From positions 1 to 38,074 of IMG/VR virus record IMGVR_UViG_3300042922_000487: 38,074 nucleotides of DNA. One strand, given 5' to 3'. This document shows, piece by piece, positions 2,356 through 28,923 of the stretch. Source of the DNA: a virus. A program made the position numbers and the translations under genes. The notes beneath the pieces were generated by a model. That model ran no database searches and was not told the origin of the DNA. It saw only the letters and a program-made list of their open reading frames with translations. The first letter of the stretch is position 1. Every line of letters begins with the position of its first letter.

Positions 2356-3252
2356 TCAGACGAGGTCGTGGATCTTCGCGAACGCGTTCAGGTCCGCGAT
2401 TCCCCAGCCGTAGACGACCTCCGCACGGAACGCGACCTGGTTCTTGCGCTTCAGGTCACCGCCACCGTCCGGGTCACCGTAACGAATGACCTCAAGACCG
2501 ATCGACTTCTGAACACCCCAGCGGATGGCGGAGAAGTCTCCGACGAAACCGAGGACGTCCGTGTCGACCGCGAGGACACCGGTACCACGAACCGTGTTGG
2601 ACACGGAAGCGCGGTGGCCGTCGAGCTCGCTGGTCTCGATTCCGAGGCGGAAGTTCGGGTAGAGCTTCTGCTCGGAGTTCACGCCACGCAGGGCGGAGAA
2701 CTTGGCCGCGTAGGTCGGGTCGAGCGCGATGTCGCGGGGAACGAATCCATCCGCGAGCACGAGAGCGTCGGCCGCGTCGAGGCTGACGTACGGCTTGTCC
2801 GCCGCCACGTACTCAACAACGTTGGTCGTGTCCGTGAGGCCACCGTTCATGGCGGCGACAACCGCGCCGCCGGTCGGGTTGATCTCGTGGAACACACCGA
2901 AGTCGAGCGCCCGCGAGAGCGCCGGCTGAATGAGGTCGAGGATCTCGTCCACGATCTCGAGCTGACGGTCCTCGTCCGCCCACAGAACCTCTTCGTTGAA
3001 ACGGAGGGTCTTGTGGAACTTGAACGGCTTGATCGTCTTCGACGTCGGAGTGATCGTCGAAGCACCCTTGTCGCCACCTTCAGCGACGTACTCGGCCTCG
3101 CCGATGTCGAACGTCCACGACTCACCCTCACCGAACGTCATCGGAGTCTGGGCGGACAGGGTGGCAACGGCCGACCCGTTCTGGATCGCACCAAGCCAGG
3201 GTGCGATCTTCTGCTTGGGGATCGAGAGCGACCCCGTAGCAAGTGATGCCAT
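2356..3252 (-). CDS. Major capsid protein (HK97 fold)
   Basis: 298 aa. Features of HK97-type capsid proteins without a large delta domain: N-arm followed by WLGAIQNGSAVATLSAQTPM, the E-loop-like GEGESWTFDIGEAEYVAEGGDKG, spine-helix region EILDLIQPALSRALDFGVF, and a C-terminal P-domain strand ending FRAEVVYGWGIADLNAFAKI. Preceded by a scaffold gene and followed by connectors, the usual order. High confidence in the assignment. Confidence 0.9.
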   Translation of the reverse strand: MASLATGSLSIPKQKIAPWLGAIQNGSAVATLSAQTPMTFGEGESWTFDIGEAEYVAEGGDKGASTITPTSKTIKPFKFHKTLRFNEEVLWADEDRQLEIVDEILDLIQPALSRALDFGVFHEINPTGGAVVAAMNGGLTDTTNVVEYVAADKPYVSLDAADALVLADGFVPRDIALDPTYAAKFSALRGVNSEQKLYPNFRLGIETSELDGHRASVSNTVRGTGVLAVDTDVLGFVGDFSAIRWGVQKSIGLEVIRYGDPDGGGDLKRKNQVAFRAEVVYGWGIADLNAFAKIHDLV

Positions 3253-3267
3253 AATCTTGCCTTTCGG

Positions 3268-3723
3268 TTAGTCGGCGCTGTCGAACAGGTTCCGCGCGAA
3301 CTCGCGCATCTCCGTGTCGTCGGCGCCTGATGTCTTGGAATCGCCCTCCTTGGGAGCGACGTTTCCCTGCTTCTTGTGGTCGACGGTGCGCTCCGCGAGC
3401 CGTGCGGCCTGCTTCGTCAACGTGTCCTCGTCGGTACCAGTGAGGAACAGTGCGGCGTCTTCGTCGGAGATGCCGTGGGTTGCCTGAACGCGGCTGACAA
3501 GCGCACTGCGCTTTGCCGCGCCGAGCTCCTCGCGCAACGTGGCGAGATCATTCGCCAACTTCTCCGCGTCTGTCTGACCAGCCTCGAGAGCGTCGGCGCG
3601 CGCCTTGTTCTCCTTGGCGCGGCCCTCCCACTTGCGGGAATGTTCGAGCGCTTCCTCGTACTTGGCTTTCCAGTCCGTCGTGTCCTGTTCCTGCTCCCCG
3701 TGCGGGGCGTTTTCCTCAGCCAT
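3268..3723 (-). CDS. Capsid scaffolding protein
   Basis: 151 aa, highly charged and almost entirely helical. A long predicted coiled coil covers about residues 17-75 (YEEALEHSRKWEGRAKENKA... ELGAAKRSALVSRV). The C-terminus has the acidic/basic capsid-binding look (DDTEMREFARNLFDSAD). Scaffolds of this length, charge and position (just before the capsid gene) guide procapsid assembly and leave before packaging. Confidence 0.82.
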   Translation of the reverse strand: MAEENAPHGEQEQDTTDWKAKYEEALEHSRKWEGRAKENKARADALEAGQTDAEKLANDLATLREELGAAKRSALVSRVQATHGISDEDAALFLTGTDEDTLTKQAARLAERTVDHKKQGNVAPKEGDSKTSGADDTEMREFARNLFDSAD

Positions 3724-3766
3724 GCGGCCCTCTCACTTAGGTTTCGCCCGTGCGGGCATGAAGAAA

Positions 3767-4480: not shown

Positions 4481-5867
4481 TCGCGACCGCCCTCGAGTTC
4501 AACACCGCACGCACAACAGCGCGACCGTCCGCCTTCTGCTTCTCCGCAAGAGCACGCTTGATCTGCTGCTCCGTAAGACCCAGCAGCTCGAGACCAACTT
4601 CGGTCTCGGCAAGCCACGGAACCGCTGCAAGCTGCTTCTGCCCGGCGTCCGCAGCGGCCGACTTCGACACGTACTGCGGGTTCCGCCACTTCGTGTCGAT
4701 CGACGCCCACTCGGCCGGAATCCTGTCAAGGTCGTTCTGAATCGCGAGCGCACGAGTCACCGCACGACGAACAGAAATTGACCAGTCGTCGGTCGCACCC
4801 TCAGCCTCAGCAAGCAGGTTCTCCCGCGCCTCCGAGTAGGAGTCCGCAGCGGTCGGGTTCGCCATGTCCGTCAACGCAAAGTCCGCGTCCGACAGGTCGA
4901 ACTCCCGCGCCTCAAGCTTCGCCAGCGCGTTCAACTGCGCCAGATGCGCCTCAGGAGACTCAGCCTTGAACTGCTTGATATCCGCACGAGGACTAGCCGC
5001 GTCGTCATCATCGGGCACACCGAACACACGCCCAAGAGCGACCTGCCACGACGCCTTCTGCGTCCCGTCAGCGTTCTTGAAGATCGCATCACTCGCACCC
5101 AGCAGCCACAACTGCGGAATCGAGTAGATGTCCATGTGGCCTTCCATGCGAATCAACGCACGAACGGCGGCATCCTGAAGCCCCATCGTCGCCCGCGTGA
5201 TACGCGAACGACCCATCCGACGCGACGCCCGCGGCCGGTACACCATCGGATCCGCCGGCACACCCCACGGATGCTCCGACCGCCCCACCGACCACTTCGA
5301 ACCATCCTTGTCGGCGTTGATCGTCAGCCCGTCCAGATACAGGACAAACCCCGTCAACTTCCCGTCCTTCATGGACGTCACCGACAGCAGGTTCTCCAGC
5401 TTCCGCTTACGGTTGTTCCACACACCGGTCGCGCGCAACGCATCCTTAGCGTGGACAAGAGCCTTCGGTTCACCCCCCGACTCGTCACCACGCGTCGTAA
5501 TCAGATACGACACACCATTGATGAGCGAATCAGTACGAGCGTTCGCGATCTCCGACAGTAGGAAGTTCGCATCCGTCAGTTCCTGCATCCCAAGAGAGTT
5601 CAGGTCACCATCGGACCAACTCATCCCCTCGAGATTGCATCGACGCGCCAGACCGTCAACACCCTTAGCATTCCACCCCAGCACCAAACCCAGACGCTTG
5701 TACTGCGGCGGAATAACCGACCCAACCTGCTTGATCGCACGCTTCCCGTCGTACACAGACGCCCGAAGAAGGTTCCGCTTCGACTTCGCCTCCAACTGCT
5801 CGATGAGCAGATTCAGGGTGACAGTCTCGTCTTCCGAGAGCCCCGGAACGCGCAGCGTTTCACTCAC
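4431..5867 (-). CDS. Portal protein (SPP1 gp6-like)
   Basis: 478 aa, the usual portal length. The N-terminal part (KRNLLRASVYDGKRAIKQVG, ...LGWNAKGVDGLARR) and the middle ALIRMEGHMDIYSIPQLWLLGA and ADSYSEARENLLAEAEGATD are typical of SPP1-type portals in actinophages. It forms the ring through which DNA enters. Its start overlaps the terminase stop by four bases. The alternative frames here are shadows. Confidence 0.9.
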   Translation of the reverse strand: MSETLRVPGLSEDETVTLNLLIEQLEAKSKRNLLRASVYDGKRAIKQVGSVIPPQYKRLGLVLGWNAKGVDGLARRCNLEGMSWSDGDLNSLGMQELTDANFLLSEIANARTDSLINGVSYLITTRGDESGGEPKALVHAKDALRATGVWNNRKRKLENLLSVTSMKDGKLTGFVLYLDGLTINADKDGSKWSVGRSEHPWGVPADPMVYRPRASRRMGRSRITRATMGLQDAAVRALIRMEGHMDIYSIPQLWLLGASDAIFKNADGTQKASWQVALGRVFGVPDDDDAASPRADIKQFKAESPEAHLAQLNALAKLEAREFDLSDADFALTDMANPTAADSYSEARENLLAEAEGATDDWSISVRRAVTRALAIQNDLDRIPAEWASIDTKWRNPQYVSKSAAADAGQKQLAAVPWLAETEVGLELLGLTEQQIKRALAEKQKADGRAVVRAVLNSRAVANGDSERVETGATASDD

Positions 5868-7348
5868 AGAACCACCGCCGTCCTAGATCCAGAGCGTCGA
5901 GTGGGACGCTTTACGTTGTCGTTCTGAGCGCCCCAAAGGGCAAGAGTGATGGCGACTACGGGGGTAATGTCCGACGCGGCGTCCTTGCGGTTCCACGCCC
6001 ACCCCGCGCCGAGCGGGCGCTTACGCGCCATCGAGAGAGCAAGATTCACCGGCGGCTGATCGGTGTGACGTACCGTCGGGTTCGGGCTGACGACCGAGTC
6101 GTAAAACTTCGCGCACGCGATAGCCATGTCCCGACCCTCCGCGCCCGCCAATGTCACTTCCACATCAGTTCCGATGAGGAAGTTCCGGTCACGTCGCCGT
6201 TCGACCAGACCGGACATCTCATCCACGACGATGGAGTGCAACTTGTTCCTCTCGGAACGCGCCTTGATCCAAGGAATAACCCAGTCAACGCCGCGCCGAG
6301 ATTCGTCCATCTCCACGTGCCACAAACCGTCTGCGCGCAGCCCCGCAAGTCCCACCGAAGCCACATCGCGACCGGGAGGTACGTCGATTGCCAGAGTGAG
6401 GCGTTCAATCGGCATGGAAGCCGGGTCGGCCACGGCGGCCCACTCCGATTCGCTGATCACTCGGTGCTGCGAGTCGGCATCCCAGATACCCATCGCTTCC
6501 CGCAGGAATGAATCCTCCGAGAGTTGCTTCCGCATGCGCTGGATCGCCTCAGCGGGTGTCCGGTGGGGGAATGACGGGTTGGCCTTGGCCTGCTGGTCCA
6601 GATCGTCGGGGTTGGCGTTCTGATCGGCACTGAACTCGATGTACAGCGTCTCGCCGGAACCGCTACCGCTCTCGAGTGCTTCGTTACGCAGGCGCTCGAA
6701 GACTTCGCCCGGGTCGATAGGCCGCGGCGGAGTCCCCGTGAACAGTGCCAGCGCGTTCGGCGCCGCGTTCATCGCCGGAAGCATGTCGTCCAGCGCCCGC
6801 TCAGTAAGAATCTGCGCCTCGTCAAAGACCTCTACGTCAACCTTCGCGAAACCACGACCGAACCCGGTCTCGCGAGCTCCGAACATGATCCGGGAGCCGT
6901 TGCGGAACTTGATCTCTTCAGAACCTGCCGCGGTGAATACCTGCTCCACGAACGGAGCAATCTTGCGTCGTTTAGCCATGCCCTGCATCGACCGGAAGGT
7001 CTCTTTGGCCGTCTTCAACCGGTGAGCGGTCCACAAGACCGTCGTCCGCGGGTTCAGCAGGCACAGCGCAAACACGATGGCACCCAGCAGGTACGTCTTT
7101 CCGACCTGGCGGGGAATCGACATAGCAACGCCACCAACCGTGGCAGCGTACTTACCGTCCTCGCGCTTAGCCAGAATCGCCCGGCCCGCCCCGTCCTGCC
7201 ACTGGTCGAACGTCAACCCGAGCGCAAGACACTTGTCGCGCACCGCCGGCCAGCCGGTAGACACGATCCCCTTCGGCAGGACGACATGGCGCGCAGTGTC
7301 AGATAGCTTCGGCGTCCCAGGCTTCGTCGGGGGTTCGACTGTCACCAT
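5864..7348 (-). CDS. terL: Terminase large subunit
   Basis: 494 aa from ATG 7348, chosen because AGGAGG lies 9 bp upstream; the frame is open to 7390 but that adds only an Arg-rich stretch. The ATPase domain has a Walker A variant SIPRQVGKT (about residues 77-85), a coupling region WTAHRLKTAKETF and Walker B VEVFDEAQ (DE at 176-177), with LFTGTPPRP as motif III. The C-terminal half shows the RNase H-like nuclease Asp in LTLAIDVPPGRDVASVG and IVVDEMSG. It pumps and cuts the DNA during packaging. Overlaps terminase small by 50 bp. Confidence 0.93.
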   Translation of the reverse strand: MVTVEPPTKPGTPKLSDTARHVVLPKGIVSTGWPAVRDKCLALGLTFDQWQDGAGRAILAKREDGKYAATVGGVAMSIPRQVGKTYLLGAIVFALCLLNPRTTVLWTAHRLKTAKETFRSMQGMAKRRKIAPFVEQVFTAAGSEEIKFRNGSRIMFGARETGFGRGFAKVDVEVFDEAQILTERALDDMLPAMNAAPNALALFTGTPPRPIDPGEVFERLRNEALESGSGSGETLYIEFSADQNANPDDLDQQAKANPSFPHRTPAEAIQRMRKQLSEDSFLREAMGIWDADSQHRVISESEWAAVADPASMPIERLTLAIDVPPGRDVASVGLAGLRADGLWHVEMDESRRGVDWVIPWIKARSERNKLHSIVVDEMSGLVERRRDRNFLIGTDVEVTLAGAEGRDMAIACAKFYDSVVSPNPTVRHTDQPPVNLALSMARKRPLGAGWAWNRKDAASDITPVVAITLALWGAQNDNVKRPTRRSGSRTAVVL

Positions 7349-7610
7349 CCTCGTCAGCCTCCTGCTTCGCCTTCGCCTCAATCGCCTCAATCTCTCGGGC
7401 GATCTCTTGCAACCGACGCGTCAGCGCTGCCAGGTCTCGAGGTGGACAGTTCGGGTCCTGAACGGCCTTCGCCACCCGGTTACGCATAGAAACCAGCAGC
7501 TCAAGCTGACTGCCACCCTCCGCAGCCTCCAGAACGCCCTTGACCTTCGGCACAGTGGGCGGCTTCTCGTCCTCACCGAGGGCACGAAGCCCCTTCTTGG
7601 GATCAGCCAT
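7299..7610 (-). CDS. terS: Terminase small subunit
   Basis: 103 aa. Basic/acidic helical protein with SQLELLVSMRNRVAKAVQDP and PPRDLAALTRRLQEIAREIEAIEAKAK, typical of actinophage small terminases that recognise the packaging site. Starts after GGGGG at a 7-bp distance. The 80 bp upstream (7617-7698), with a T-run on the minus strand, and the nearby HNH genes are where a cos or pac site is usually found; I cannot identify the cut site itself. Confidence 0.78.
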   Translation of the reverse strand: MADPKKGLRALGEDEKPPTVPKVKGVLEAAEGGSQLELLVSMRNRVAKAVQDPNCPPRDLAALTRRLQEIAREIEAIEAKAKQEADEDGDSRTPDEAWDAEAI

Positions 7611-7698: not shown

Positions 7699-8631
7699 CT
7701 ATGCCGCGAGGGCGTGCGCTTCGGTCAGTGCGAGGTGCTTGAAGGCATGTCCTGCGAGGGACGTGTCAACGGGCTCAAGTCCTCTGCGCTGTCTGTCTGC
7801 TGCCCACTCTTTGGGTGTGAGGTCGCGCTTGTCCGCGTTGCACTGTCTGCATGCGGCGACTATGTTGCTCATGCTGTTGTCCCCGCCTCGAGAGATCGGG
7901 ATGACGTGTTCGGGATCGGGTAGCCCGTCGCAGGGCTGGTGGCAGTAGGCGCAGGTCATGCCCTGCTTTCGGTACTGGTGCAGTACATCGAGGTATCGGA
8001 AGTGTCCTGGCGCGTTGTGCTCTCTCGCCTTGCGTCTACGTCGTGCCACTCGCTTGGCGCATCGTTCGGAGCACCACTTGGATGGGGTGGAGTAGGCTCG
8101 CTCGACGATGCCCCCGCCACAGTCGTCACATGATCCAACCCAGAACGCTGGGGTTGACTCGTGCTTCGGATGAGGTGGTGCCCATGGTTCGGAAGCTCCG
8201 AACCACAGTGCCCAGTGATCGGTCGGCAGTTCGCGCTTCAGTGGGCCGTACCTGTAGAAGTCTCGGCACAGCGTTGAGCAGAAGACGGACTTGTACCGTT
8301 GTTCGCGGCGTGCTTCCTTTTCGCAGTGTGATCCGCACGCATCGCACGCCATGATCACCTTGCGGTGTGCGGGTTTCCGGCAGGCGGCTCCGCAATAGAG
8401 TTGGCGCCCGTGCTTCGGCGTGTAAACCGTGCCGCATTTGCAGGTCCGCGCTTCGGGCTGCGGTGCTTCCGCGCCTTCGGCCCGTCGCTTCTGACCAGCG
8501 CGGATGCGCTCTATGAACGCGCGGTACCGCACTGGGTCAGCCTTGATCCTGAGGTACTTCGCAGCAGCCTTGCACTTGTCTGAGCAGTACTTGCGCGCCG
8601 AGGGCGCAGAGCAATGGGCGCACGTGGTCAT
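7699..8631 (-). CDS. HNH endonuclease with four N-terminal zinc knuckles
   Basis: 310 aa from ATG 8631 (GGGAGAA upstream). Four C2C2-type clusters precede the nuclease: CAHC...CSDKC, CKCG...CGAAC, CDAC...CSTLC and CDDC...CSERC (roughly residues 4-20, 60-85, 95-125, 165-185). The C-terminal HNH domain is CAYCHQPC...PEHVIPISRGG, then SNIVAACRQCNADK. Such enzymes make nicks or breaks, and some assist packaging. It lies between a second HNH gene and terminase, and four zinc knuckles in one phage HNH protein is notable. Could be a homing endonuclease that has settled here. Confidence 0.85.
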   Translation of the reverse strand: MTTCAHCSAPSARKYCSDKCKAAAKYLRIKADPVRYRAFIERIRAGQKRRAEGAEAPQPEARTCKCGTVYTPKHGRQLYCGAACRKPAHRKVIMACDACGSHCEKEARREQRYKSVFCSTLCRDFYRYGPLKRELPTDHWALWFGASEPWAPPHPKHESTPAFWVGSCDDCGGGIVERAYSTPSKWCSERCAKRVARRRRKAREHNAPGHFRYLDVLHQYRKQGMTCAYCHQPCDGLPDPEHVIPISRGGDNSMSNIVAACRQCNADKRDLTPKEWAADRQRRGLEPVDTSLAGHAFKHLALTEAHALAA

Positions 8632-8662
8632 GGCTTCTCCCCATGTCGGTGGGTACAAGAAA

Positions 8663-8718
8663 TGCCCGCCACGACGGGGATCAATCCGTCTGCGGGCACT
8701 CGCCCCCGACAGGGCGAG
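8663..8718 (-). terminator. Two tandem hairpins between the two HNH genes
   Basis: Stem TGCCCGC/GCGGGCA (8663-8669 and 8692-8698) and, next to it, CTCGCCC/GGGCGAG (8699-8705 and 8712-8718). On the minus strand the first transcribed is the compact one, downstream of the 89-aa HNH gene. There is no strong T-run, so these could be terminators, processing sites, or structures linked to packaging-site recognition. Confidence 0.45.
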
Positions 8719-8722
8719 CGGT

Positions 8723-8992
8723 CTAGTTCAGGGCGCCGGAACGGCGAATGATGGGCGATACATCACGGGCACGCTTCGTGCTGTTGCAGGATGCGTGCGC
8801 CGGCTGTTTGTTAGCCAGGGAATCGTCTTGGCTCTTCGCCCAGGGCTTGATGTGGTCGACTACGAACGACATCGGGTCGGGGTACTTGAGGCTGTAGTCG
8901 ATCGATTGGCCGCACAGGGCGCAGTCGGCTTTGAGGCGGGCGAAGTGTGCGCGATGCTTCCTGCGGAGCGGTTCTGAGCGTCCTTCTTGCAT
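8723..8992 (-). CDS. HNH endonuclease (packaging-associated type)
   Basis: 89 aa. Complete minimal HNH: CALCGQSIDY, SFVVDHIKPWAKSQDD (the DH catalytic pair), SLANKQPAHASCNSTK. This short form lying next to the terminase genes matches the HK97 gp74-like HNH proteins, which are known to help terminase in cos cleavage. Here it is one gene removed from terminase small. Start ATG 8992; SD weak. Confidence 0.85.
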   Translation of the reverse strand: MQEGRSEPLRRKHRAHFARLKADCALCGQSIDYSLKYPDPMSFVVDHIKPWAKSQDDSLANKQPAHASCNSTKRARDVSPIIRRSGALN

Positions 8993-11753: not shown

Positions 11754-12209
11754 CTAGATGTTGTGTCGCGGGGCTCCTTCGGAGTTTCGCCAGATGCATA
11801 GCATGGTGGGAAAGGGTGCGGGCGTGGTGGCGTTGCCGAACTTCAGCCGGCCCTTGATGAATCGGATCTCGGCGAGCGGTAGCACGTAATCGTGGAACCA
11901 CTTCACGTCGGTACGGGCGGGGACGAGCATCACCGTGGTTGCCGCGGCGTGCGCGGCCTTCCAAACCCAATGCTTCAGCTGGTCGCCATACGGCGGGTTG
12001 CACCAGACGACCTCCCCGTCCCAGTCCTGCGATATCCCGTCATCGTCCACGGTGTAGAACTTCGGGCACTTCGTGTTCGTCGGGTCGGCTGCAACGTCGA
12101 CCGTGAATCCGAACTCCTTGTTGAGTTCGTCATACAGCCACTGCGGCGTGGGCCACTCCACCGTCTGCGACGACAGGAAGACGCTCCTGTCGATCGTCGT
12201 GTCAGGCAT
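11754..12209 (-). CDS. dam: DNA N6-adenine methyltransferase (phage Dam family)
   Basis: 151 aa. Opens with WPTPQWLYDELNKEFGFTVD then VAADPTNTKC, the family's substrate/SAM region, and has the catalytic motif NPPY (residues 71-74, in VVWCNPPYGDQL). VMLVPARTDVKWFHDYV is the usual later motif. It would methylate adenine in phage DNA, perhaps against host restriction. ATG 12209 lies directly after a GAGGA; a TTG at 12242 that overlaps the upstream stop is an alternative start, adding 11 residues. Confidence 0.88.
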   Translation of the reverse strand: MPDTTIDRSVFLSSQTVEWPTPQWLYDELNKEFGFTVDVAADPTNTKCPKFYTVDDDGISQDWDGEVVWCNPPYGDQLKHWVWKAAHAAATTVMLVPARTDVKWFHDYVLPLAEIRFIKGRLKFGNATTPAPFPTMLCIWRNSEGAPRHNI

Positions 12210-12238
12210 TCCTCGCCCTAACTTTACGGTCCATACGT

Positions 12239-12886
12239 TCAACGGTCATCACTCGCTGCTATCCGTGTGTGGTTCGCGGTTCCTGCGTTGAGCGCGGTGA
12301 GTAAGAACATGAACTGACCGGGTAGCCAGATGACACCGCAGGGTCCGCACCGGGCGTCGAGGGTGTCGCCGGTGTTCCTGTCGCGACGGAATGCGAGTGC
12401 GGCTGATCGGAGTTCTTCCCCGTCAACGACCCGGTATTCGTATCGTTCTCCACATGCGGGGCATGGGAGTTCAATGGGTGCGAGGCGGGGTGGGTCCAAA
12501 TAGTCTTCGATGGCTTGGATCCACTGTGCGACTACGGCGGGGGCGTACATGGTGCGTCCGTTGATGGTGACGATGGTTTCGGTGGTTGCCCACGCCGCCC
12601 ATTCGGACAGCAACGTTTCGGGGTGGACGACACCGTTGACACGGTTGAACGCCGCCCTGTGTGCTTCCCACACCTGTGTTTCGATCAGGTTGTACAGGTC
12701 GAACGCTGCCGCCTGAAACGGGAGCTTCGTTCTCCCCGCGCCTCCGATACCGTCCGTTGGTCCCCCACCGTGGATTGCGTCGCGGAGTTGGGACAGAAGA
12801 GACGGCACCGAATGGAACTCGATGCCGTCCTGGGTGCTGATCGCTTTCTTATGGTCAGCGACCAGTTGTTCAACGTCCAGCGTCAT
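12239..12886 (-). CDS. Conserved-type actinophage protein with zinc site (215 aa)
   Basis: Starts at ATG 12886, overlapping the upstream stop. N-terminal helical half (LDVEQLVADHKKAISTQDGI..., AAFDLYNLIETQVWEAH) then CPACGERYEYR and CGPCGVIW, which form a four-Cys zinc ribbon at about residues 150-195. Proteins of this shape (DUF7340/7341-like) are frequent in actinophage replication regions; their role is unknown. Lies between the methyltransferase and the small 80-aa gene. Confidence 0.65.
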   Translation of the reverse strand: MTLDVEQLVADHKKAISTQDGIEFHSVPSLLSQLRDAIHGGGPTDGIGGAGRTKLPFQAAAFDLYNLIETQVWEAHRAAFNRVNGVVHPETLLSEWAAWATTETIVTINGRTMYAPAVVAQWIQAIEDYLDPPRLAPIELPCPACGERYEYRVVDGEELRSAALAFRRDRNTGDTLDARCGPCGVIWLPGQFMFLLTALNAGTANHTRIAASDDR

Positions 12887-13125
12887 GTGCGCTCCCCTGT
12901 CGTTTCGAGTTCCTTGTAGTACCGGTCGAAGTTTCGTTGACTGATCCACCGCACCGTCCACGTGTCGGTGTCTGCGTGTACCCAACCCAAATAGTGGTCA
13001 CCGTTCCTGCGGGGTCGGGCGTCAACAATGCGGACAGGTTTCTCCCACCGTCGCCACCGTTTGTCGAATCCGTACTGGGTGAGGAGTTGCCCACGCTTCA
13101 CAGCAATGGCTTCGCTATACGTCAC
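12883..13125 (-). CDS. Hypothetical protein (80 aa)
   Basis: GTG at 13125 overlaps the previous gene's stop by 11 bp; no SD, so probably translationally coupled. Basic N-terminus (SEAIAVKRGQLLTQYGFDKR), middle VRIVDARPRRNGDHYLGWVH, then RWISQRNFDRYYKELE. A small beta-rich, Trp/Arg-rich protein. No family recognised. Confidence 0.55.
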   Translation of the reverse strand: MTYSEAIAVKRGQLLTQYGFDKRWRRWEKPVRIVDARPRRNGDHYLGWVHADTDTWTVRWISQRNFDRYYKELETTGERT

Positions 13126-13321
13126 CGCGAGGCACCGCCCCACTGTCTGGGACGAGCTCCTCAACCTGGGTCACCACAACGAAGGCATCCGCGGGGTGAC
13201 CCGGCCAGCCGAGGTCGAGCGCCCTTTCTGCGACGCCTTCCCGGCTGTGCGATACGACGATCACGGTGGTCTTGCCGGCCCCGTTGCGGGGGCGGACTTC
13301 GGTATGGAATTTCGCGAGCAT
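13115..13321 (-). CDS. Hypothetical protein (68 aa) next to DpdA-like gene
   Basis: ATG 13321 with AAAGG upstream. Pattern FHTEVRPRNGAGKTTVIVVS, then HSREGVAERALDLGWPGHPA, VVVTQVEELV. The GAGKTT string looks like part of a P-loop but the protein is far too short for an NTPase. Probably a small alpha/beta protein. It follows the transglycosylase-like gene and may be part of the same unit. Confidence 0.6.
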   Translation of the reverse strand: MLAKFHTEVRPRNGAGKTTVIVVSHSREGVAERALDLGWPGHPADAFVVVTQVEELVPDSGAVPRGDV

Positions 13322-13331
13322 GATGGGCCTT

Positions 13332-13946
13332 TCAGATGAGGGTTGGTGCGTTGACTTGGCGAAGCCAGCCGAGCACCTTGGGTAGGTTTTGGTCGGGGCC
13401 GAATACGAGGAACGTGCCGTCTGCGGAGTCGCATCCAATACCGTTCGCGTATCTCATGCGGGAGGCTGAGTTGACGCGTCCCATGTGGACCCGCTTGCCC
13501 CGCTCTTTTGCTTCCGCGGTCAGATCACGAGCGTGACGCCCAAGCTTCCATTCGGTTGTTCCGCCGAGGAATAGGATGTCGAACTCGCCCCACGGCACAC
13601 CGACGAACTCGGCACCGTCCTGCGCGACGAATGCTGCCGGGTATCCAAGTTCCCGAATCTTCGGGAGCCACGGAGTCGACCGGGCTAGGGTTCCCGCGGC
13701 GTCTGCGACCACGTCCGGAGCTGTTGCGAACAGGCACCGCGACCGTTGCTCCGGCGTGAAGGTGTCTAGCCATGCGAGCCACGCGTCTTCGCCTGGGAAT
13801 CCCTTACCGAAGCATCCGTTATCGGCGCACCATGCGGCACCCTCGGGGATCGAGTTGCCCTGCATGGGCGTGTTGATCATCCCGAGGGTGCCGTTGGTCA
13901 TGGCTTCACGGATTCGTGCTGTGGACGGGTTTCCGAAGTACAACAC
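13332..13946 (-). CDS. dpdA: DpdA-like 7-deazaguanine (TGT-family) DNA transglycosylase
   Basis: 204 aa. Motifs match the tRNA-guanine transglycosylase fold used by phage DpdA: CADNGCFGKG (D42, in place of DSGGFQ), FATAPDVV (residues 73-80), GGTTEWKLG (128-136, like the GG-x5-E strand) and HMGRVNS...YANGIGCDSADG (D173 as likely nucleophile). Phage DpdA enzymes exchange guanine in DNA for preQ0-type bases, which protects it from restriction. It is shorter than tRNA-acting TGT, and its neighbour is a queuosine-precursor-type transporter. Acting on tRNA instead is an alternative. Confidence 0.7.
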   Translation of the reverse strand: MLYFGNPSTARIREAMTNGTLGMINTPMQGNSIPEGAAWCADNGCFGKGFPGEDAWLAWLDTFTPEQRSRCLFATAPDVVADAAGTLARSTPWLPKIRELGYPAAFVAQDGAEFVGVPWGEFDILFLGGTTEWKLGRHARDLTAEAKERGKRVHMGRVNSASRMRYANGIGCDSADGTFLVFGPDQNLPKVLGWLRQVNAPTLI

Positions 13947-14472
13947 GGGACACCGCCCATCCGATGAGAAGGAACGCGAGCATGGCCCACACCTTGCCGA
14001 CGAGTTGTCCGGGCAGCGCGGGAAGGATGGCAGCAGGACCGAATGCGATTCCGAGGAACAGGACCGTGTCGACCACGGCCCCTACGACGGTGGAAGCGGC
14101 TACCGCGATAGCCCACTTGCGGTCACCGAACCGTGACCGTTTCCGAATGGGCGTGTACACGCCGTAGTCAGCGAGCTCAGAAACGAGGAACGCGACCGCC
14201 GATGCGATTGCGATGAACGGTGCAGACATCGCAAACGAGAGGATCGCCCCCGCCAGGATCGCGCCGACCACCACCCACCTTCCGAGGGTGTCCTGCACCG
14301 CGTCTCTGAGTGCGAGCGTCGCTCCTGCTACGAGCGTTCCCGCGGTCGCTGTCAGCCCGAATCCGACAGGGATGAATCCCATGTGGGTGGTGAGGACGTT
14401 CGCGAGAACGACCGTTGAAATGAAAACGGCCACCAGAATCCATCCGGTGACCTGTCGTGCTGTCTTGTTCAC
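13906..14472 (-). CDS. VUT/YhhQ-family queuosine-precursor transporter
   Basis: 188 aa with about six hydrophobic spans. GWILVAVFISTVVLANVLTT opens helix 1; LALRDAVQDTLGR is the conserved loop; SELADYGVYTPIRKRS and the late segment VVGAVVDTVLFLGIAF are family hallmarks. YhhQ proteins import preQ0/preQ1 across the cell membrane. It overlaps the DpdA-like gene by 41 bp, so the two are probably co-translated: import of the base, then insertion into phage DNA. No preQ0 synthesis genes are seen in the window. Confidence 0.82.
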   Translation of the reverse strand: MNKTARQVTGWILVAVFISTVVLANVLTTHMGFIPVGFGLTATAGTLVAGATLALRDAVQDTLGRWVVVGAILAGAILSFAMSAPFIAIASAVAFLVSELADYGVYTPIRKRSRFGDRKWAIAVAASTVVGAVVDTVLFLGIAFGPAAILPALPGQLVGKVWAMLAFLLIGWAVSRVVLRKPVHSTNP

Positions 14473-14769: not shown

Positions 14770-14941
14770 CGCCGCTCCCGTTCGTGTGGTTGGGGATCTC
14801 GTTGGGGCACGGGAGGCTGGACCGTCCGAACGGGGTTCGGCAGCGACCACAGATATGGGCGGGTGGTTCGGGTCGTTCGGTCAGCACAAAGTCCAACCAG
14901 ACCTGTTCGTCTTTGGAGACCTTGTAGTGCAACTCGTCCAT
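14759..14941 (-). CDS. Small zinc-ribbon protein (60 aa)
   Basis: ATG 14941 overlaps the SSB stop (TGATG). N-terminal MDELHYKVSKDEQVWLDFVL, then CGRCRTPFGRSSLPC, a three-Cys cluster, and a Gly/Asn-rich tail. It may assist SSB or DNA metabolism, judging only by coupling. Confidence 0.55.
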   Translation of the reverse strand: MDELHYKVSKDEQVWLDFVLTERPEPPAHICGRCRTPFGRSSLPCPNEIPNHTNGSGDVH

Positions 14942-15399
14942 CAGAAGGGGACCTCGGAATCCGTGGGAACGTTGGCGGTGGTCCACGGGTCGGCGGATAT
15001 GTCTTCGGGGACATAATCCGCGGCCGGCGTCTGCCCGCTGGTGGTTTTCATGATGACGGCGGTTGCGCGTTTCAGGGACGCACCCAGTTCGTCCACATCG
15101 AGTTCGAGGCTGGTCCGGTTATTGCCCTCACGGTCTTGGTAGTTACGCTGTTTCAGCCGCCCTGTGGCGATGACCCGGTCACCCTTGCGGAGCGAGCCGG
15201 CAATGTTCTCGGCGAAGTCCCGCCAAGCGGACGCTCTGAGGAACGTGGTGTCGCCGTCCTCCCACTGGTTCGTCTGCTTGTTGAGGCGTCGGGATGATGC
15301 GGCGATCGTGAAATCCACGACCGGGCGTCCGTTGCTCGTGTACCGGAGTTCGGGGTCGGCGGTCAGGTTCCCGGCGATTGTGACGTTGGAGAGTTCCAT
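14941..15399 (-). CDS. ssb: Single-stranded DNA-binding protein
   Basis: 152 aa. OB-fold signature: LSNVTIAGNLTADPELRYTS, VDFTIAASSRR, DTTFLRASAWRDFAENIA and KGDRVIATGRLKQRNYQDRE. The C-terminus ends TDSEVPF, the acidic tip with terminal Pro-Phe through which SSBs recruit partner proteins. It coats single strands during replication and recombination. ATG 15399 overlaps the upstream stop. Confidence 0.95.
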   Translation of the reverse strand: MELSNVTIAGNLTADPELRYTSNGRPVVDFTIAASSRRLNKQTNQWEDGDTTFLRASAWRDFAENIAGSLRKGDRVIATGRLKQRNYQDREGNNRTSLELDVDELGASLKRATAVIMKTTSGQTPAADYVPEDISADPWTTANVPTDSEVPF

Positions 15400-15554
15400 T
15401 ACTTGTACCGTTCCTTCAAAGCGATTTCGCAGTCCCAACACTCAGGCCAGTCCTGCGGGTGTTCGTGGGTTTCATGCCACCGGTCGAGTGCGTCATCCCG
15501 GCGTGCGTCTTCCTGGGCGGAGATCCAGTCGTCAGAACCCCAACTGCGGTCCAT
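15399..15554 (-). CDS. Small acidic Trp/Cys protein (51 aa)
   Basis: ATG 15554 overlaps the HNH gene's stop (TGATG). Pattern MDRSWGSDDWISAQEDARRD, DALDRWHETHEHPQDWPECW, DCEIALKERYK. Possibly a Cys/His metal site (H-x3-H ... C-x2-C). No family recognised. Confidence 0.58.
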   Translation of the reverse strand: MDRSWGSDDWISAQEDARRDDALDRWHETHEHPQDWPECWDCEIALKERYK

Positions 15555-20752: not shown

Positions 20753-21490
20753 TCAGTTCCTTTCGTCTGATCGCTCAAACGCGATGTCGACCGGACCCTG
20801 TTGCAGGTACTTGATCGCTCGCTCTAGTCGGATTGGGTCGTCCTCGATATATCCGAGGGCGGAGTTGCAAAAGCTGCACAACAGTCCGCGCACATGACCT
20901 GTAGCGTGATCGTGGTCTACTGCGAACCGGTTGTTGATGCGGCCTCGGCCATTCGGGCCGCCGCGGCAGATCGCGCACGCACCTTCCTGTTCGGCGAGGA
21001 TCGTGGCGTAGTCGCCGGGGGTCATGCGGTACTTCTCCCACAGCATCTGCTTCCAGCGGGTTCGTTTGCCGTACGCACGCTTCCGCGCATCGCGACATGC
21101 GGCACAGCGCCGACGCACACCGCTGCTGGGTAGTTCGATCCCTGTACCGCAGTCCTCGCAAATCGGCTGAGGGATGTTCAGGTCGCCGTAGACGCGCTTA
21201 CGTGAGTAGTGGGGCATGCAGAGCCCCCCGGCCCGCCGCGACCCATCACACCCACTGACCGAGCACTGAGGATCCGGCGGTTCGTACCCGGTCCGCCTCC
21301 TGTACGCCGCGCGAAGATAGTGCTTCTGGCAGAGGCTCGCGGCGGTGGCTCCTCGACTGCACCCATCCTCTGAAGCGCAACGCGGTCTAGACGGGTCATT
21401 CTCTCGCTCGAGGGTGTAGTGCCATGTGCACAGCCCCCGGGCCTTCACGGTCTTAATGCACGACTCTCTCTTGCACTCCAACTGCTTCAT
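20753..21490 (-). CDS. Endonuclease VII-type nuclease with three CCCH modules
   Basis: 245 aa. Three tandem modules near the N-terminus with the pattern C-x4-C-x8-9-C-x2-HY: CKRESC...CTWHY, CASEDGC...CQKHY and CSVSGC...CMPHY. Next a C-x2-C...C-x2-C cluster (CEDC...CAAC), then an endonuclease VII core (EQEGACAICRG, FAVDHDHATGHVRGLLCSFC, NSALGYIEDD). T4 endonuclease VII cuts branched DNA such as Holliday junctions, useful before packaging. The triple zinc front is unusual. Overlaps the exonuclease stop by 38 bp. Confidence 0.82.
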   Translation of the reverse strand: MKQLECKRESCIKTVKARGLCTWHYTLERENDPSRPRCASEDGCSRGATAASLCQKHYLRAAYRRRTGYEPPDPQCSVSGCDGSRRAGGLCMPHYSRKRVYGDLNIPQPICEDCGTGIELPSSGVRRRCAACRDARKRAYGKRTRWKQMLWEKYRMTPGDYATILAEQEGACAICRGGPNGRGRINNRFAVDHDHATGHVRGLLCSFCNSALGYIEDDPIRLERAIKYLQQGPVDIAFERSDERN

Positions 21491-22310
21491 ACTTGTCCTG
21501 AAATTCGTAGATTGAGTAAACGGGAGGCCGGCAGATCCCTATCTCTTGGGAGTAGCCCGGCCACGTTCCCGAGTGCACTCCCTCGGCATACAGTTCGCGG
21601 GCACGTCGCGCCTTGGCGATACCAATGCGTGAGAAGTCCTCATCGAGCACATTCACTGACGTGAGGTAGGGAGCAGCCGCCTCTACGGCCACAAAGATGA
21701 ACCTCGGAGCTTCGCCGGTGACGAGCTCGTGCGTGTGCCGGTAGTGTGCCTGCTGAACGTCGTACCCGAAGGACGCGACCGAGCGTGCGAAACCTTCCGG
21801 ACTGGCCTCACCTGATGTCGTCTTGAGGTCGACCGCAATGTCCCCCAGGAAGTCGAACCGACAGCGCACGTCGATTTCGAACTCGGTATCTCTCGCAAAC
21901 ACCGAGACCTCGGGGCGTCCCGCCTTCTGTTCCAGCAGCGCGCGGGCGATGGGGTGGGCGAGGACGGATTCCGACATGAGTCGGACCACGTTGTACTGAA
22001 CCTTCTTGAGCGGGATCTTTCCCTCCGCTCTGCATGCCTCTTCGAACTCGCGGGCAGCGTTCGTGTTCGTGGACCCGTTCTTCGCGAGAACGTCATCCGG
22101 GTACACCTCGACTTGCGAACCAACGCCGAGGACGCGGCTATGGGTCGCGGTACCGACGTCGAACTCTGCTTTGGGTTCCTGCGGGTGAGACAGGGACCAT
22201 GCGAAGTGAGCCGGGGACTTGAGAAGCTTCTTGGCTCCTGTTGAAGAGAGACCTGCCGCGGCGTGATAAGCGGTGTCTGGGAGTCCGTGGACAATTCCGG
22301 TGTAGGTCAT
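21453..22310 (-). CDS. PDDEXK exonuclease (RecE/exodeoxyribonuclease VIII-like)
   Basis: 285 aa from ATG 22310 (MTYTGIVHGLPDTAYHAAAG); the longer frame lacks support. LSSTGAKKLLK and SPAHFAW are the usual N-terminal signature, and the active site is CRFDFLGDIAVDLKTTSG (D...DxK), with VQQAHYRH later as the QxxxY motif. Such enzymes degrade one DNA strand to give 3' tails for annealing. It starts the recombination block that may include the gene at 20367-20747 and SSB. Overlaps its upstream neighbour by four bases. Confidence 0.85.
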   Translation of the reverse strand: MTYTGIVHGLPDTAYHAAAGLSSTGAKKLLKSPAHFAWSLSHPQEPKAEFDVGTATHSRVLGVGSQVEVYPDDVLAKNGSTNTNAAREFEEACRAEGKIPLKKVQYNVVRLMSESVLAHPIARALLEQKAGRPEVSVFARDTEFEIDVRCRFDFLGDIAVDLKTTSGEASPEGFARSVASFGYDVQQAHYRHTHELVTGEAPRFIFVAVEAAAPYLTSVNVLDEDFSRIGIAKARRARELYAEGVHSGTWPGYSQEIGICRPPVYSIYEFQDKYEAVGVQERVVH

Positions 22311-22483
22311 GGCCAGTCTTTCCGTAGTCTCTGGTACTCGTCCGGGTGCCCAACCAGCCATTCCACGGCCGCGCAGAACGCGTCGACTTCGGCGCAACGG
22401 ATCAGGTTGGTGTCTTCCCCGAAGTTGGCGGGAAGGTTCGTGTACGTGTTGGCGGCTTCAACCACCACAGGATCAGTGCCCAT
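22307..22483 (-). CDS. Hypothetical protein (58 aa)
   Basis: ATG 22483 with AAGGGG upstream; a GTG at 22492 is an alternative. Helical, with VVVEAANTYTNLPANFGEDT, NLIRCAEVDAFCAAVEWLVG, HPDEYQRLRKDWP. Overlaps both neighbours. No family assigned. Confidence 0.58.
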   Translation of the reverse strand: MGTDPVVVEAANTYTNLPANFGEDTNLIRCAEVDAFCAAVEWLVGHPDEYQRLRKDWP

Positions 22484-27567: not shown

Positions 27568-27737
27568 GCATCATCGTGGACCCGTCCGACTCCAACTACG
27601 CGATAGCTGACGGCAAGCTCGCGGTCGCAGTACGCGCCGTCGAGGTGGCGAACTGGGAGGCTCCCACTGTGGCCGAGCTCGCGGGCGGAAAGATCATCGG
27701 CTACTCCACCGACGGATTCGGCCCGGTCAATGCCTAA
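27564..27737 (+). CDS. Small protein upstream of integrase (57 aa)
   Basis: ATG 27564 overlaps the previous stop; the last eight bases overlap int. MSIIVDPSDSNYAIADGKLA, VAVRAVEVANWEAPTVAELA, GGKIIGYSTDGFGPVNA. Compact acidic protein; perhaps a cofactor that controls int translation by coupling. Confidence 0.6.
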   Translation: MSIIVDPSDSNYAIADGKLAVAVRAVEVANWEAPTVAELAGGKIIGYSTDGFGPVNA

Positions 27738-28923
27738 GCCGTCTCCGCGGAAGAACAAGGATGGTTCGGTTTCGTGGCGGGTGCAGTTCCGCATCGGGGA
27801 CAAGGTCGTTCAGGAGACGTTCGAGACGGAGAAGGGTGCCGCGGAGTTCGCGCGTCTCGTGGAGACTGCTGGCGGGAAGGCTGCCCGGGATGTCCTCGCG
27901 CGACGCCGTCAGGGCGAATCTGAGGCGGTAACGCTACGGTCCTGGACCGCGCACTACCTGGACCCTTCCAGCGGCCTCCTGACAGGCATTGAGCCTGGCA
28001 CCCGGAAAGGGTACGAGCGCGCTGCCGAGTCCAGCTTCCTCCGCATCCTCGGCGACTACCCGGTGGACGCGATCCAGAAAGCAGATGTCGGCCGGTGGTT
28101 GGCATGGCAGGAGCAGCAACCGTCCGCGCGGTCCAAGGGGCAACTGATCGCGGCGAAGACGGTTCGCAACTACCACGGCATCCTGTCGTCCGTGTTGGCG
28201 TCGGCAGTGACGGAGAAGATTCGTTCCGACAACCCCGCCCACCGGACTCGTCTCACCAAGGGCGTCAAGCGGGAGTCGGTGTTCCTGTCCCCTGACGAGT
28301 TCACCACACTCCTCTACTTCACCCCCCAGCACTATGAAGGCCTCGTGTTGTTCCTCGCGTCCACAGGAGCACGGTGGGGTGAAGCCACCGCCGTCAAATG
28401 GGGTGACGTGAACTCGAGAGCCATCCCCGCCACGGTACGGATCGACGAGGCGTGGAAGAAGTCCGAGACCAGCGTCCCCGTGTTGAAGCAACCCAAGACA
28501 GCAAGGGGACGAAGGACGATCAGCATCCCACCCGACACTCTCGCGGCGATGGGGGAACGGCGCGGCCCTGACGAGCTCGTGTTCACCACGCGGGTCCAGC
28601 AGCGGAGAGTCCGCTACCACACGTTCCGTGACCGGGTGTGGGCTCCTGCCGTGCTGCAAGCCATGGATAAGGCGGTCTGCGAGGAAGCCGGTCTGGTTCC
28701 CCTGACCCGCCGCCCCACCATGCACGATCTCCGACACAGTCACGCCTCATGGCTGATCGCAGCCGGAACACCACTCCCCTACGTTCAAGCCCGACTCGGC
28801 CATGAATCCATCCAAACCACCGTGAACGTCTACGGTCACCTCGTCCCCGAAGCGCACATACAGATGGCCGACGTCATCGGCGGAACCCTCGCGGGCGCGC
28901 GAACCCTCAAACAACTCACTTGA
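27730..28923 (+). CDS. int: Tyrosine integrase
   Basis: 397 aa. N-terminal arm-binding domain (about 1-65, KDGSVSWRVQFRIGDKVVQE), core-binding SAM-like domain (about 70-175), catalytic domain with R215 (STGARWGEAT), Lys near 254-257, H332-x2-R335 (MHDLRHSHASW), H358 (RLGHES) and the nucleophile Y368 (VNVYGHL). All active-site residues are present. It integrates phage DNA at the tRNA-like att site upstream. Translation overlaps the 57-aa gene by eight bases. Confidence 0.95.
   Translation: MPKPSPRKNKDGSVSWRVQFRIGDKVVQETFETEKGAAEFARLVETAGGKAARDVLARRRQGESEAVTLRSWTAHYLDPSSGLLTGIEPGTRKGYERAAESSFLRILGDYPVDAIQKADVGRWLAWQEQQPSARSKGQLIAAKTVRNYHGILSSVLASAVTEKIRSDNPAHRTRLTKGVKRESVFLSPDEFTTLLYFTPQHYEGLVLFLASTGARWGEATAVKWGDVNSRAIPATVRIDEAWKKSETSVPVLKQPKTARGRRTISIPPDTLAAMGERRGPDELVFTTRVQQRRVRYHTFRDRVWAPAVLQAMDKAVCEEAGLVPLTRRPTMHDLRHSHASWLIAAGTPLPYVQARLGHESIQTTVNVYGHLVPEAHIQMADVIGGTLAGARTLKQLT

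Follow-up and report, generated by a model that had tools for sequence, protein, structure and literature searches.

What does a phage gain from a membrane protein of the queuosine-precursor importer type whose gene overlaps that of a very small, DpdA-like enzyme? We examined this question in a 38,074-base virus record, analyzed over its entire length and called the window below. Our preferred reading, which we hold with a probability of about 0.72, is that the two genes form an operon that marks the phage genome with a scavenged base, plausibly as protection against restriction, including restriction by bacterial Dpd islands. Under this proposal, the YhhQ-type membrane protein would import a queuosine precursor, most likely preQ0, into the infected cell. 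The 204-aa enzyme, judging from its fold, its motifs, and its genomic context, would then swap guanine for the imported 7-deazaguanine in DNA, and the resulting mark would let progeny DNA escape restriction.

The locus and its gene pair

The window encodes a terminase (positions 5864 to 7390) and an integrase (27730 to 28923) and therefore represents a tailed phage that is temperate or formerly temperate. Replication genes lie around the pair, namely those for SSB (14941 to 15441) and a RecE-like exonuclease VIII (21453 to 22397). The features considered here are the following:

13906..14472, minus strand: yhhQ-like (COG1738/Vut_1) importer of 188 aa, the first gene of the pair, scoring above the curated cut-offs of PF02592 and TIGR00697
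13332..13946, minus strand: short DpdA-like transglycosylase of 204 aa, so classified from its AF2 model, VIA-align, conservation, and hhalign
13906..13946, minus strand: 41 bp shared by both frames, a probable site of translational coupling; 16 of 59 related pairs overlap by exactly this length
13115..13321, minus strand: downstream ORF of 68 aa, left out as a functional part

Both ORFs of the pair were found on the minus strand with the 41-bp overlap that the first-pass annotation had described. Each begins with GTG, and the purine-rich AGGAAGAAGAG stands immediately upstream of the importer GTG. Such an overlap would couple production of the importer to that of the enzyme. In the 59 yhhQ pairs retrieved from related loci, other recurring overlap lengths are 32 nt (13 pairs) and 4 nt (8 pairs). 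Near the pair, an Rfam search returned no preQ1 riboswitch or other known RNA, and PADLOC matched neither gene of the pair to a Dpd model, nor the short ORF, nor a nearby methyltransferase. The latter, a Dam-type DNA methyltransferase at 11754 to 12242 on the minus strand (PF05869, 3.9e-31; an orphan MTase according to PADLOC), represents a second possible anti-restriction mark.

The short protein encoded at 13115 to 13321 had been singled out as noteworthy, but comparison with related loci does not support it as a partner of the pair. Read from the ATG at 13321, the ORF gave no family matches, and among all loci compared its relatives occur only in two close ones, L002 and L005. The third genes that recur in relatives of the pair are QueF-like or deoxyribosyltransferase-like instead. 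As such, the importer and the TGT/DpdA-superfamily enzyme of the module originally proposed are supported, whereas a partnership with the short ORF and a catalytic role for D173 (discussed below) are not. The minimal scavenging arrangement, also flagged at first as worthy of attention, is not unique to the window, being present in isolated phages of Mycobacterium, Rhodococcus, and Arthrobacter.

Predicted fold and residues of the short enzyme

The 204-aa enzyme has no matches in Pfam (0 families at an E value of 0.1) or NCBIfam, and its sole family match is the uncharacterized phrog_15826. Actinophage homologues share ∼57 to 64% identity with it, most of which were named "DpdA-like tRNA-guanine transglycosylase" by their depositors. 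The AF2 model is an eight-stranded TIM barrel (pLDDT of 96.4 and pTM of 0.92). When this model was compared to known structures with VIA-align, TGT structures occupied the top 43 PDB rows (Z of 15.2 to 14.6; rmsd of 2.6 to 2.9 over 188 to 196 residues), with the best match at a Z of 15.2 and an rmsd of 2.7 over 194 residues. A ribulose-phosphate epimerase follows close behind at a Z of 14.6, and the fold alone therefore does not decide the family; in Foldseek, ribulose-phosphate epimerases top the list. The structural search advised in the first-pass annotation nevertheless recovered a TGT-type barrel, and the Foldseek matches include 7ui4, the bacterial DNA preQ0 insertase DpdA, as well as several phage "queuine tRNA-ribosyltransferases" among predicted viral proteins. 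A sequence search of the PDB with the family profile of the enzyme gave nothing meaningful.

Profile-profile comparison using hhalign aligns the enzyme with CAjan/Seuratvirus-type DpdA at E values of 7e-5 (four sequences) and 0.0011 (deeper set), with modest probabilities in both cases; CAjan-type DpdA scores the same 0.0011 against TGT. Comparison of the enzyme to canonical TGT was not significant (E value of 0.38). The motif order DxGxF, D..GD, GG, and last Asp region is common to the enzyme and CAjan-type DpdA, and the corresponding segments are collinear (ADNGCF/LDSGAF, PDVVGD/LDGIGD, FLGG/ITIGG, and GCDSA/SCDSS). The succession of DxGxF, GG, and the candidate nucleophilic Asp also agrees with that of TGT, to which the alignment is likewise collinear.

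The motifs of the window enzyme comprise ADNGCF (D42), PDVV (D78), VAQDG (Q109), GG128-129, HMGRVN (H154), and D176-G-T. Across 49 aligned sequences, G44, G129, and D176 are invariant and D42 is nearly so. The first-pass annotation had named D42 and D173 as the telling residues of a TGT fold. D42 holds, and the fold, motifs, and genomic context would place it in the base pocket; D173, on the other hand, is replaced in two relatives (L013 and L028), and D176 is the probable nucleophile. That choice is based mainly on conservation because the two available alignments disagree: the alignment to TGT sets D176 on the Asp of FDCV, while that to CAjan DpdA sets D173 on D206. The zinc motif CxCxxC is absent from the 204 aa and present in the TGTs of L123 to L127. 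Separately, the enzymes of L022, L030, and L051 contain a Cys-pair insert, possibly a metal-binding loop, between the GG motif and TEWKL.

These comparisons bear directly on whether the pair acts on host tRNA, with the enzyme placing the imported precursor there and so tuning how phage genes are translated. It is true that the top structural matches of the enzyme are tRNA-guanine transglycosylases and that the family of the importer is known chiefly for its part in tRNA-queuosine salvage (PMC5372724, PMC11130926). However, the enzyme has neither a Pfam TGT match (PF01702) nor the zinc motif of the compared TGTs, and the modest profile match described above is to a phage DpdA that acts on DNA. 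In addition, canonical TGT is rare among the cellular genomes that bear the gene, being clear in three Nocardia and three Paenibacillus genomes of the 40 surveyed. We consider action on tRNA improbable and favor insertion into DNA.

Still less probable, to the point of being a marginal concern, is that the window phage has kept the two genes only as nonfunctional, decaying relics. Decay of this kind is seen in relatives. Techage (L122, 2986 to 3318) carries a shortened yhhQ and has lost dpdA, a joint decay that also counts in favor of the marking operon and serves as a natural control for GreaseLightnin-type relatives, and the short gene is split into two frames in phiG7 and in the Seuratvirus SHIN8 (L175, 6941 to 7533), the latter with an intact canonical DpdA. 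In the window, by contrast, both frames are intact, the invariant residues are kept, and third codon positions are GC rich, as in coding sequence.

The short enzyme is mostly an alternative to canonical DpdA, as the short gene was seen once within the flanks of 80 canonical DpdA loci. (Single-sequence scans with canonical DpdA found almost nothing and gave way to a profile scan.) In cases where a second, larger TGT/DpdA is encoded beside it (Arthrobacter phage Sonali, Vibrio phage R29Z, and L308), the short enzyme may therefore have its own target motif, site, or role. Sonali (L118) encodes two different TGT/DpdA-type enzymes, gp81 and gp87 (5001 to 5618 and 7988 to 8878), along with QueC, QueD, QueE, and a ParB-like protein. 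By eye, we also noted that a distant short dpdA in L034 is immediately preceded by a frame (2834 to 3733) with a radical-SAM-like Cys motif.

Import or synthesis of the precursor

The importer matches Pfam Vut_1 (PF02592) at 2e-13, with 51.4 bits against a cut-off of 27.2, and the NCBIfam model TIGR00697, "queuosine precursor transporter," at 52.6 bits, narrowly above the cut-off of 50.95. Residues invariant across 30 aligned sequences include A24, N25, R56, D135, F139, and K160. In E. coli, the COG1738/QPTR member YhhQ takes part in transporting preQ0 (PMC5372724), and family membership suggests that the window importer likewise takes up a queuosine precursor, most likely preQ0. Since members of the YhhQ family can switch to preQ1 or queuine as substrate, according to one report (PMC11570991), we infer the exact substrate rather than assign it.

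The first-pass annotation saw no genes for preQ0 synthesis and proposed that the phage may scavenge the base. In the window record, searches for QueC, QueD, and QueF found none, and no QueE emerged when a portion of the Sonali QueE served as the query of a local search. The logic of scavenging is further supported by the related loci, in which yhhQ is exchanged for queC, queD, or queE beside the same enzyme. Among the 80 nearest IMG/VR loci from a profile scan, yhhQ is next to the short enzyme, upstream and on the same strand, in 59, a pairing far more frequent than expected by chance. Another 10 have queC/queD, 11 have neither supply gene within their flanks, and none has both (Fisher P of 2e-7, a value that overstates independence, as the 80 loci are mutually related). 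A supply gene of one kind or the other is thus present near the enzyme in 69 of the 80 loci. The same pattern emerged when 49 records were searched whole: Vut_1 was detected in 26, QueC in 5, and QueD in 6 (either in 7), and importer and synthesis genes never occurred together (Fisher P of 0.003).

In a tree built from 135 enzymes, at least seven changes are needed between the yhhQ and que supply states, and the starred branches alone force at least three changes of the que label. In four loci (L275, L283, L287, and L314), queC, queD, and queE occupy the position immediately upstream of the enzyme that usually belongs to yhhQ, and one of these (L275) shares a supported clade of 11 rows with the window enzyme; in L306 and L307, queC follows the enzyme. 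This exchange between importer and synthesis genes constitutes strong indirect evidence for scavenging. Although Hutinet et al. (2019) found YhhQ to be uncorrelated with any phage group (PMC6884629), within the short-enzyme subfamily it does correlate, being the usual direct neighbor of the enzyme and excluding queC/queD.

Some relatives carry additional genes that are absent from the window. A third gene is found between importer and enzyme in 9 of the 59 yhhQ pairs and takes one of two forms. The first is a QueF-like protein of ∼105 aa (PF14489 at 3e-8 and 4.5e-7, above the cut-off in two members and weaker in others); Aoka has the gene order importer, QueF-like, enzyme, as do the QueF-bearing relatives. 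The second is a nucleoside deoxyribosyltransferase-like protein in L005/L264 (PF05014, 7e-7). The QueF-like protein may convert preQ0 before insertion, a step that would point to preQ1 or an amidine form as the base used by some members.

Several further observations concern these genes. QueF-like proteins of this size, which keep the Cys-Pro, Asp, and Ser-His-Glu motifs, are encoded immediately before dpdA or in the interval from yhhQ to dpdA in L009, L010, L011, L015, L016, L017, L023, L030, L060, and L119. A deoxyribosyltransferase-like gene lies inside the module in L005 (region 4647 to 5000) and L323 (2121 to 2687), and L323 has further short-dpdA frames together with que genes.

Cellular carriers, Dpd islands, and known systems

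A scan of GTDB retrieved 16 cellular genomes that carry yhhQ with the enzyme. For several of these genomes, an identical enzyme was found in an IMG/VR virus contig (for example, L058/L266, L065/L303, and L063/L299). Eight of the 16 yhhQ-positive genomes encode a bacterial DpdA elsewhere in the genome (E value of about 1e-180), whereas only 1 of the 33 genomes that have the short enzyme but lack yhhQ does so (Fisher P of 2e-4). The seven QueC neighborhoods examined yielded members of DpdA (7), DpdB (11), DpdC (6), and DpdD (5), with DpdA in all seven and the other three in most.

Sampling within a single genus gave a similar result. Among 295 Streptomyces genomes, 18 have Dpd, distributed as 4 of 6 carriers and 14 of the 289 others (∼5%; P of 1.4e-4). 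With the chosen center removed, 3 of 5 Streptomyces carriers have Dpd (P of 0.0015), and pooling gives 5 of 9. Across the class, Dpd was present in 2 of 391 noncarriers; this sample, whose yhhQ-positive genomes number three including the chosen center, with the other two lacking Dpd, is used as background only and not as a replicate of the link. A phylogenetically matched contrast offered two usable pairs only and hence no power. Carriers in these samples are few and were in part chosen for carrying the pair. Even so, the enzymes from Dpd-positive hosts are only 39 to 68% identical to one another and derive from Cellulomonas, Nocardia, Micromonospora, and Streptomyces; the association is therefore a repeated one, though based on few genomes.

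Two Streptomyces carriers without Dpd, G133 and G375, were considered as possible bearers of pseudogenes, since one stop was reported inside each match. The idea was dropped: the frames are essentially full length, and the stop lies at the C terminus. Streptomyces chromosomes also contain a clade of enzymes without yhhQ (L114 from Streptomyces scabiei and the near-identical loci L071 to L083 and L109), in hosts mostly without Dpd. By eye, a VirB4/TraG-like ATPase frame is upstream in L114, and this clade perhaps resides on conjugative elements.

Because half of the sampled cellular genomes bearing the pair encode a Dpd island, a purpose directed at Dpd is attractive: on entering Dpd-positive hosts, the phage would already bear a self mark like that of Dpd, even if it came from a cell unable to make preQ0. 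Phage DNA bound for a Dpd-positive cell would have to bring the mark from the previous cell, which an enzyme and an importer of its own would allow. Alternatively, the base may go into DNA through the same steps of import and insertion and differ in purpose alone, with the mark acting against ordinary restriction enzymes only and the Dpd link arising as a by-product of preQ0-supplying hosts or of sampling. Phage DNA that contains dPreQ0 or dG+ resists many ordinary restriction enzymes (PMC6884629), and 8 of the 16 carriers are without a recognized Dpd island. Moreover, the Dpd islands seen here adjoin QueC, so Dpd-positive hosts probably make preQ0. Yet preQ0-making hosts are precisely where an importer would be least needed, and Dpd is about 10 times as frequent in carriers as in the genus background. 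We regard this narrower purpose as a serious contender that falls somewhat short of an even chance. The most elaborate form of the Dpd-directed proposal is a portable counter-restriction device combining preQ0 import, a Dpd-like mark, interchangeable importer/queC/queD/queE cassettes, and optional base tuning by QueF-like or deoxyribosyltransferase-like proteins; taken as a whole, we put it forward tentatively and consider it rather unlikely. A genome mark made from a scavenged base, plausibly protective against restriction including Dpd, is the reading that we retain.

If correct, this reading links phage modification to a specific bacterial 7-deazaguanine defense and presents a candidate DNA base-exchange enzyme of TGT fold and very small size. 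It also offers a testable answer to how DpdA-only phages may obtain their substrate, namely, through importer or synthesis genes beside the enzyme, never both in our sample. Isolates already exist on M. smegmatis and Arthrobacter; among the former, GreaseLightnin and Ksquared carry the pair, and strain mc2 155 of M. smegmatis lacks preQ0 synthesis (PMC6884629). Our literature search found no biochemistry or mass spectrometry on the short-enzyme subfamily.

Among known systems, the DpdA-only phages that Hutinet et al. (2019) placed in "group 3," such as Mycobacterium phage Orion and Salmonella phage 7-11, resemble the window in that they encode a DpdA-type enzyme but no genes for preQ0 synthesis. 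For these phages, an exogenous precursor was proposed to be taken up, and some phages were seen to have YhhQ homologues (PMC6884629). The DNA of Orion is unmodified (PMC6884629), which counts against the DNA-marking reading; Orion is absent from the matches of a search with the window enzyme. In CAjan, dpdA is genetically required for dPreQ0 in phage DNA (PMC6884629). DpdA of this Seuratvirus/CAjan type belongs to the TGT superfamily and has the motif order of the window enzyme, but it is ∼306 aa long and supplied by FolE-QueDEC synthesis, whereas the window pairs a 204-aa enzyme with import. The two enzyme types coexist in R29Z and, with the short one broken, in SHIN8.

Bacterial Dpd islands (DpdA-C for modification and DpdD-K for restriction) place 7-deazaguanine in DNA, as proposed for the window pair, and ∼9% of them include YhhQ (PMC11888242). 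These islands are multigene systems with a DpdA of ∼410 aa, in contrast to the two genes and 204-aa enzyme of the window. Like E. coli YhhQ (COG1738/QPTR; PMC5372724), the window importer belongs to the family defined by the Vut_1 and TIGR00697 models; unlike it, the window protein is phage encoded, has a putative substrate, and overlaps its presumed consumer enzyme. The SEA-PHAGES "DpdA-like tRNA-guanine transglycosylase" proteins (GreaseLightnin gp55, Aoka gp40, and Sonali gp81) belong to the same subfamily at 57 to 64% identity to the window enzyme. In those annotations, the adjoining YhhQ gene is labeled only as hypothetical or as a membrane protein.

The kind of system is thus already known, as DpdA-only phages, some with YhhQ, were described in 2019 (PMC6884629). 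In the literature searched, we found no description of the importer/synthesis exchange or the Dpd link, and an earlier published account of the subfamily may exist. To the known picture, the present analysis adds that importer and synthesis cassettes replace one another, that QueF-like variants exist, and that there is a link to Dpd islands.
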